The notes beneath the pieces were generated by a model, which saw only the letters and a list, made by a program, of their open reading frames with translations, was not told where the DNA came from and made no database searches. From assembly GCA_003604995.1 (NCBI GenBank), contig QZJD01000023.1, positions 1 through 34,029 on the forward strand: DNA of 34,029 nt, in the 5' to 3' direction. This DNA comes from Desulfobulbus sp. (GTDB lineage Bacteria > Desulfobacterota > Desulfobulbia > Desulfobulbales > Desulfobulbaceae). The position numbers and the translations under genes were made by a program. Shown in pieces: positions 24,404 through 26,716 of this stretch (its first letter is position 1; every line of letters starts with the position of its first letter).

Positions 24404-24432
24404 TTGACACCCAAAGAACGGACTCGGATAAT
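24404..24432 (+). promoter_or_regulatory. Promoter of the aldehyde ferredoxin oxidoreductase operon
   Basis: TTGACA (24404-24409), a 17-nt spacer and GATAAT (24427-24432) form a near-consensus sigma-70-type promoter on the plus strand. Transcription should start near 24439-24440, which is exactly where the MITE-like element begins. Confidence 0.65.
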
Positions 24433-24443
24433 AAAAAGGGATA

Positions 24444-24561
24444 GAGCCTCTTTCAAAATGAACGACGTCGCGAGATCGAGCAAAAAATATTCTGGGCAAA
24501 AACGACGCCGTCCAGGAGATTTTTAGCCGATCGGAGCAGGTGGTCATTTACAAAGAGGCTC
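24444..24561. mobile_element. MITE-like palindromic element, copy 1 (118 bp)
   Basis: The ends are imperfect 18-bp inverted repeats, GAGCCTCTTTCAAAATGA at left and its near-complement at right (16 of 18 match). The interior continues as a looser palindrome. GATA occurs directly before (24440-24443) and directly after (24562-24565), as expected for a 4-bp target duplication. There is no coding capacity, so it would need a transposase supplied in trans. It shares most of its sequence with copy 2 in the same orientation. Confidence 0.75.
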
Positions 24562-24636
24562 GATATCTTCCGTTTTCTCAGCACGTTTTTGCGGCGAGGT
24601 AATTGAAAGGCATGCCATGCCAGCATAGCGATCCTT

Positions 24637-24672
24637 CGGGATACTCCGGCGGGTACCTGCCGGAGTATCCCG
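24637..24672. promoter_or_regulatory. 36-bp near-perfect palindrome in the oxidoreductase leader
   Basis: GGGATACTCCGGC (24638-24650) and GCCGGAGTATCCC (24659-24671) are exact inverted copies, extended by one outer C-G pair, and the loop contains GGTACC. It starts about 100 nt before the oxidoreductase ATG. As RNA it would be a very stable hairpin; as DNA it could bind a dimeric regulator. It has no T-run for termination. Confidence 0.55.
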
Positions 24673-24735
24673 CCGCAATGTTCATGCCGGCATTCCAGGC
24701 CGAAAAACGACAAATGCGCATTCAGGGAGGAATCT

Positions 24736-26469
24736 ATGGCTGACAGGATTTATCGGGTTAACATGTCTGATTTAACGGTGCGGGTCGAGGATGTCCGGGA
24801 ACAGTGGTCCGGTCTCGGTGGCCGCGGCCTGACCTCGACCATTGTCGCGGCCGAGGTGGAGCCGACCTGTCATCCCCTTGGACCGCGCAACAAGCTGGTT
24901 TTTGCGCCCGGCCTGCTGAGCGGGACCGTGACCGCCAACTCGGGCCGCCTCAGTGTCGGCGCGAAGAGTCCGCTCACCGGAACCATCAAGGAAAGCAACG
25001 CGGGTGGCACCGCGTCCCAGCTCCTGGCCCGGCTCGGGCTCAAAGCCCTGATCATCGAGGGTCAGCCGGAAAAGGAAAGCCTGTACAGCCTGCATGTCAC
25101 TGCCGACGGGGTGGCCATCGCCGAAGAGCCCGACCTGGCCGGCAAGGGGAACTTTGCGGTGGTCAACGTTATGCTGGAGCGCTACGGCGAGAAGACCGGG
25201 GTGATCTCCATCGGCCCTGCCGGCGAAATGAAAATGGCCATCGCCAACATCTCGGTCAAGGACCCGGAGGGCAAGGTGCGCAGCGCCGGCCGCGGCGGAC
25301 TCGGGGCGGTCATGGGGGCCAAGGGCGTGAAATGCATTACCATCAGCGTGCCCAGGGAAGCAGCGGTGCCCATCGCCGAACCGGAAAAGTTCAAGGCGGC
25401 GGTCAAAATCTTTGCCAAGGCCCTGCTCGAGCATCCGGTCAGCGGCCAGGGGCTGCCCACCTACGGCACCGCGGTGCTGATCAACGTGATCAACGAGGCC
25501 GGCGGCCTGCCCACCCGGAATTTCCGTTCCGGCCAGTTTGAGCAGCACGACGCCATTTCCGGCGAGACCATGCATGACCTCATCGAGGAGCGGGGCGGGA
25601 AAATACGGCACGGCTGCCATGCGGGCTGTGTGATTCAATGCTCCCAGGTGTTCAACGATGCGGGCGGCAAGTACAAGACATCCGGCTTTGAATATGAGTC
25701 CATCTGGGCCATGGGGGCCGACTGCTGCGTGGACAACCTGGACCAGATCGCCGAGGCGGACAGCCTGATGGACGATATCGGCGTCGACACCATCGAGACC
25801 TCGGTGACCATGGGGGTTGCCATGGAGGGAGGCCTGCTGCCCTTCGGCGACGGCGCGGGCATCATCCGGATACTCGACCAGGACGTCCGCACGGGCACGC
25901 CGCTGGGGCGGCTCATCGGCGGCGGCGCGGCGGTCGTCGGCAAGGCGTACGGGGTCACCAGGGTGCCGGTGGTCAAGAACCAGGCGATCCCGGCCTATGA
26001 TCCGCGGGCGGTGAAGGGTATCGGCATCACCTACTGCACCAGCACCATGGGCGCGGACCACACCGCCGGCTATGCTGTGGCGACCAATATCCTGAAGGTC
26101 GGCGGCGATGTCGATCCCCTGAAAAAAGAGGGGCAGGTCGAGCTGTCGCGCAATCTGCAGATCGCCACCGCGGCCCTGGACACCGCCGGCCTCTGCATCT
26201 TCGTCGCCTTCCCGGCCCTTGATATTCCGGAGGCGTTCACCGCCATCGTCGACATGATCAACGCCCGTTTCGGCATCAGCCTGACCGCCGACGATGTCAC
26301 CGAACTGGGCAAAAATATCCTGCGCACGGAGCACGAATTCAACCTGGCGGCGGGCTTTACCAACAAGGACGACCGGCTGCCGGAGTTCTTTTCCACTGAA
26401 CTGCTGCCGCCGCACAATGTCATCTGGGATTTCACCGGGGAGGAGATCGACGAGTTCTGGAATTTTTAA
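24736..26469 (+). CDS. Aldehyde:ferredoxin oxidoreductase (tungsten/molybdenum pterin enzyme)
   Basis: The 577-residue product belongs to the AOR family, cytoplasmic enzymes that oxidise aldehydes to acids, or reduce acids, with ferredoxin through a bis-pterin W/Mo centre and one [4Fe-4S] cluster. The N-terminal domain (about 1-205) has the GLGGRGLTS and SAGRGGLGAVMGAKGVK pterin-binding signatures. The cluster Cys are C294, C298, C302 and C487 (DTAGLCIF). The first pair has three residues between them (CHAGC), whereas the classical motif has two. FEYESIWAMG (318-327) and GADHTAGYA match conserved active-site stretches. GGGAGG precedes the ATG. It is followed by sulfur-carrier and activating-enzyme genes that fit pterin cofactor assembly. 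The substrate is unknown. Confidence 0.93.
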   Translation: MADRIYRVNMSDLTVRVEDVREQWSGLGGRGLTSTIVAAEVEPTCHPLGPRNKLVFAPGLLSGTVTANSGRLSVGAKSPLTGTIKESNAGGTASQLLARLGLKALIIEGQPEKESLYSLHVTADGVAIAEEPDLAGKGNFAVVNVMLERYGEKTGVISIGPAGEMKMAIANISVKDPEGKVRSAGRGGLGAVMGAKGVKCITISVPREAAVPIAEPEKFKAAVKIFAKALLEHPVSGQGLPTYGTAVLINVINEAGGLPTRNFRSGQFEQHDAISGETMHDLIEERGGKIRHGCHAGCVIQCSQVFNDAGGKYKTSGFEYESIWAMGADCCVDNLDQIAEADSLMDDIGVDTIETSVTMGVAMEGGLLPFGDGAGIIRILDQDVRTGTPLGRLIGGGAAVVGKAYGVTRVPVVKNQAIPAYDPRAVKGIGITYCTSTMGADHTAGYAVATNILKVGGDVDPLKKEGQVELSRNLQIATAALDTAGLCIFVAFPALDIPEAFTAIVDMINARFGISLTADDVTELGKNILRTEHEFNLAAGFTNKDDRLPEFFSTELLPPHNVIWDFTGEEIDEFWNF

Positions 26470-26494
26470 GCTTTGCCGGGAATGGAAATCTCAT

Positions 26495-26671
26495 GAGCCT
26501 CTTGCAAAATGAACGACGTCGCGAGATCGAGAGAAAAATATTCCGGGCAAGGATGCGTTGTGAAATCGCCCGGAAGCAGAGTAGCGCTCCGTTGAGGACG
26601 ATTTCACAAGGAAGACGCCGTCCAGGATATTTTTAGCCGATCGGAGTAGATGGTCATTTTGAAAGAGGCTC
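26495..26671. mobile_element. MITE-like palindromic element, copy 2 (177 bp)
   Basis: The terminal inverted repeats (GAGCCTCTTGCAAAATGA and TCATTTTGAAAGAGGCTC) match at 17 of 18 positions. TCAT occurs directly before (26491-26494) and after (26672-26675), a 4-bp target duplication different from that of copy 1. The body equals copy 1 plus about 59 extra central bases that form their own hairpin, TTGTGAAATCG (26558-26568) with CGATTTCACAA (26599-26609). It lies between the oxidoreductase stop and the MoaD-like gene, so it is transcribed within the presumed operon. Confidence 0.8.
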
Positions 26672-26716
26672 TCATGTCAGTTCCCATAAAATGATGAAGC
26701 CTGCGACAATGATGAC

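Follow-up and report, generated by a model that had tools for sequence, protein, structure and literature searches.

The window, a stretch of 34,029 nucleotides from a draft genome of Desulfobulbus sp. (contig QZJD01000023.1), contains on its forward strand an aldehyde ferredoxin oxidoreductase gene of 577 aa (positions 24736–26469; AFOR_N 1.6e-62, AFOR_C 1.1e-72) with a short repeat element on either side. Copy 1 lies upstream at 24444–24561 (118 bp) between two GATA duplications (24440–24443 and 24562–24565), and copy 2 lies downstream at 26495–26671 (177 bp) between two TCAT duplications (26491–26494 and 26672–26675); these features, too, are given for the forward strand. A promoter-like sequence, TTGACA-17-GATAAT (11/12 match), precedes copy 1 on the same strand at 24404–24432. 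Both elements are non-coding, have one orientation and align over nearly their full length, except for a single internal gap of ~59 bp. Their 18-bp ends are within 0–2 mismatches of GAGCCTCTTTCAAAATGA, and at this stringency the end is found exactly four times in the window versus 0.01 expected. An earlier note made from the letters alone had described the two elements as MITE-like, which is borne out by their terminal inverted repeats (TIRs) and duplications and by the copy number and empty sites reported below; the lengths, duplications and common orientation that it gave were confirmed to the base. Its claim of two independent insertions is supported as well, as each copy has its own distinct duplication.

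The genome is represented by a draft of 2.64 Mb in 108 contigs (74% complete). BLAST of this draft matched at least 40 places (40 of 81 candidates scored); weak reverse-read matches at some of the same places occurred because the element is a near-palindrome. When up to three mismatches were allowed, the 18-bp end had 111 matches in the genome, compared to one for a reversed control pattern, so that the additional copies of the ends, which the earlier note had proposed to look for, were indeed present. The family TIR is 18 bp long and reads GAGCCTCTT(T/G)CAAAATGA. Many contigs of the draft end inside a MITE copy, which leaves some uncertainty as to how many copies there really are. Perfect target duplications of 4 or 5 bp flanked 32 of the 37 complete copies, whereas shuffled pairings of the flanks of these 37 copies gave 1.4 duplications on average and 7 at maximum. 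The duplications are 78% A+T, versus 50% A+T in the flanks. Most copies are intergenic, with all gene arrangements represented; all accepted length classes are shorter than 190 bp, and no transposase gene lies within the elements. Neither window element matched Rfam, the viral contigs searched contained no exact match to the MITE end, and the plasmids searched contained no match to the 177-bp element. In the literature, we found no paper with the MITE end sequence and no report on such MITEs in this order.

Alignment of the copies from this genome revealed a main class of 176–178 bp as well as classes of 131–132 bp and 118 bp, the latter with three members, one of which is copy 1. In copy 2, the canonical form, the direct repeat CAAGGA occurs on the forward strand at 26548–26553 and again, exactly 59 bp downstream, at 26607–26612, and the two repeats flank an inner hairpin. 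If one CAAGGA is removed along with the DNA between the repeats, the 118-bp form results. This spacing and the existence of three 118-bp copies support the proposal that copy 1 is a 59-bp deletion derivative; its inner hairpin would have been lost between the CAAGGA repeats, probably through replication slippage. A loss of 45 bp between AGGATGA and AGGACGA would likewise account for the 132-bp form. As each of the short forms is found among at least two sequence subtypes, deletion has probably recurred.

Several further elements combine the same ends with other interiors. Two elements, one of 130 bp (L081 279–408, with a GGAT duplication) and one of 183 bp (L073 214–396), have an unrelated palindromic body of the GGGGACAG type, which contains a GGGGACAGAAT palindrome. 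At L133 1019–1071 (contig C58 of the same-genus genome G001), a 53-bp element consists of little beyond the two ends and is flanked by GGTA duplications. At L061 from position 1501 onward (G053), an apparent nucleotidyltransferase-domain gene is interrupted by a short element that shares these ends and has ATAT duplications.

Empty sites were found for this family. The copy on contig C102, which has a GTATT duplication, is inserted into a second dispersed repeat, and copies of that repeat in G001 (UBA10518) align without a gap across the junction, thus representing a related empty site. A second insertion site is also empty in G001, with small indels. The oxidoreductase gene is present in five of the seven genomes of the genus, and the gene order downstream of it is conserved among same-genus genomes. 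We detected no element in the downstream intergenic space in G001, G003, G005 and G006, and none in the upstream intergenic space in G001, G003 and G006; in G005, the contig ends there. The intergenic flanks have diverged in these relatives, and therefore no base-exact empty site can be read at the two window insertions. Most simply, the gene was already in place when the elements were inserted. The second dispersed repeat, of ~100–130 bp (TTTTGTCAGTCCCGCAAAAAGTGCGGAACTGACGCCGGC...TTGCGAGGTTATC), has many copies of its own in this genome and in G001 (L002 around 384; L286, L293, L299 and L306 around 1500–1610), and had no match in Rfam.

The earlier note had also proposed to look for an autonomous insertion sequence (IS) that shares the ends and makes 4-bp duplications, and such elements were found in G001 and in genomes of other families. 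The G001 IS is 1290 bp long, has identical 18-bp ends and TTAA duplications, and encodes one transposase of 380 aa with DDE_Tnp_1 and DUF772 domains, both above the Pfam cut-off. The best match to this transposase was the NCBIfam IS1182 model NF033551 (2.5e-20), but its score of 72.8 bits fell short of the cut-off, which is 270, and we therefore name the partner IS1182-like. A genome from another family, G037, contains seven transposase copies that are 90% identical; at the three loci that we read, the ends were the same, and clear duplications were visible at two of them. In addition, ISUnCu17 from an Aeromonas plasmid, annotated as IS1182-like, has the ends GAGCCTCTTGCAAAA, an ATGA duplication and a transposase with ~45% identity; we found no paper on it. 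In the draft that contains the window, no such transposase was detected by protein search or with PF01609 or PF05598. Repeats are often lost from draft assemblies of this kind, and with 74% completeness the absence of the transposase from the draft is therefore not proof of its absence from the organism.

The MITE and the IS share only ~18–23 terminal bases, and their bodies are unrelated. Origin of the MITE by simple internal deletion from the IS was therefore rejected, and the suggestion that copy 2 points toward a larger parent form has to be corrected: 177 bp is the standard length of the MITE. The elements are thus short, within the range of ~50–600 bp that is usual for MITEs, and non-coding, have TIRs and a near-fixed duplication length, exist as dispersed copies with empty sites and have a candidate autonomous partner. 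We conclude that both window copies belong to a newly described family of a well-known kind, the MITEs. The story is that of an ordinary mobile element; the family itself is new and is now defined with its candidate partner and empty sites. Several uncultured bacteria related to Desulfobulbaceae and Desulfurivibrio contain it in abundance, and many of their contigs end in it.

We consider it very probable that the two elements represent one MITE family with a canonical length of 177 bp, that they arrived separately and were moved in trans by an IS1182-like transposase, and that the 118-bp form arose by deletion between CAAGGA repeats. A DDE transposase of this type would recognise the same ends and cut AT-rich sites with a stagger of 4 or sometimes 5 bp, with the two window copies arriving as separate events; its source would have been lost from, or be missing in, the draft. 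Mobilisation of these copies by the transposase of that IS family is what we infer from two features, the shared ends and the duplication length. An improbable alternative is that a transposase of a different family, which shares the ends by chance, mobilises the MITE. The unrelated bodies of MITE and IS agree with this, as does the failure to detect DUF772 (PF05598) transposases in nine of 12 MITE-rich genomes, including the one studied here; on the other hand, the full-length elements that were found with these ends encode IS1182-like transposases and have the same duplication length.

Ahead of the oxidoreductase gene, the sequence TTGACA-17-GATAAT is conserved in G001 and G003 with a 17-bp spacer and in G006 with an 18-bp spacer. 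In the window, its −10 box is followed at a distance of 11 nt by the start of copy 1. Transcripts would therefore be predicted to begin close to the GATA duplication and to include the 118-nt hairpin, which has a predicted RNA energy of −50.8 kcal/mol. Copy 1 has thus probably come to serve as the 5′ leader of the oxidoreductase mRNA, and a hairpin element so placed behind a conserved −10 box offers a concrete test case. The promoter-like element, conserved in four genomes of the genus, is also found at L172 1248–1276, L173 1259–1287 and L175 1263–1292.

A second alternative holds that selection maintains the elements as structured units with a function (as terminators, RNA leaders or REP/REPIN-like sequences) and that they are not transposon debris. 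The hairpins are strong, the 177-bp length and the body are conserved across genomes of the order, some double changes exist between subfamilies, and the copies from this genome keep the predicted pairs in 96.5% of cells compared to 94.6% in shuffles. However, this excess of pairing is absent within three other genomes, which leaves selection on an RNA structure unproven, and it can also result from subfamily structure or from arm-to-arm conversion. The target duplications and empty sites show transposition, and Rfam gave no match. A role as terminators was rejected; the copies are not concentrated between convergent genes: among the 23 copies with an assigned gene context, 3 are convergent and 11 divergent. 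Overall, we regard selected structured units as highly unlikely.

Finally, it is scarcely credible that the pair forms a composite unit (mobile insertion cassette) that brought the oxidoreductase gene here or could carry it out: although the two copies have the same orientation and intact outer ends and enclose one complete gene, and although MITE-associated gene cassettes (PMC5444012) and MITEs flanking integrons (PMC6382973) are known elsewhere, the outer flanks differ (GATA on the left, TCAT on the right), with no duplication common to the outer ends of the pair as in a composite transposon, and the gene and its downstream neighbour are in the same order and element-free in same-genus genomes. 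Composite transposition of the gene was thus rejected. With 45–60 copies in 2.64 Mb, the probability of at least one pair this close is 0.78–0.95, so that such a pair is expected by chance, and the suggestion that the pair could move or delete the whole gene is unsupported.

We return to the MITE family, proposed to be mobilised by an IS1182-like transposase, which can be compared with several known systems. REP/REPIN sequences are likewise short intergenic palindromic repeats, but REPs are not known to have ends and target duplications of this kind. In a few separate copies, the same MITE ends enclose a REP-like GGGGACAG body. Among elements of the IS1182 family, ISUnCu17 resembles the window MITE in the core of its ends, and ISPse1 from Paracoccus was reported to have 16-bp ends and a 4-bp duplication (PMC3281130). 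Unlike the ISs of this family, the window elements lack a gene, are 118–177 bp long and have only the ends in common with them. IS1272, a palindrome-targeting member of the same broad transposase family, reportedly replaces target inverted repeats and makes no duplications (PMC5678879), whereas the window elements duplicate 4–5 bp. MITEAba12 of Acinetobacter and Moraxellaceae is similar in being short and non-coding, with defined ends, AT-rich targets and spread across a family, and its identity to candidate parents was also reported to be restricted to the ends (PMC6382973); it differs in having another parent, while the window MITE has 4- or 5-bp duplications and an IS1182-like partner.

Among the complete 177-type copies from this genome, identity to the nearest neighbour was at most 97.2%; since no two of the copies read are more similar than this, recent movement is not evident here, consistent with a family that has been inactive for a while. 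The 177-bp consensus is 93–98% identical across five genomes (the one studied here, Desulfurivibrio sp. SURF_16, RIFOXYD12_FULL_57_12, KR13_N2.mb.116 and MM_PC_MetaG.mb.92), and in the other four, the copies are 96–98% identical to the consensus of their own genome. As genomes of different families are involved, likeness of this degree suggests that the 177-bp element has spread horizontally. Spirochaete contigs with the end sequence did not carry the 177-bp body, and spread of the MITE across phyla is therefore not claimed. A broader scenario, unlikely in our view, would have the 177-bp element spread nearly unchanged across families of the order and be abundant mostly in genomes lacking the transposase; this would come about through repeated horizontal arrival with short-lived sources, or because copies are useful to the host, for example as a hairpin at the start of the oxidoreductase transcript. 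In many contigs of G050, we observed a large related population with the ends GAGGCTCTTGCAAAATGA and GAGGCTCTTGCAAAATAA spaced ~132 bp apart, which suggests a sister MITE family.
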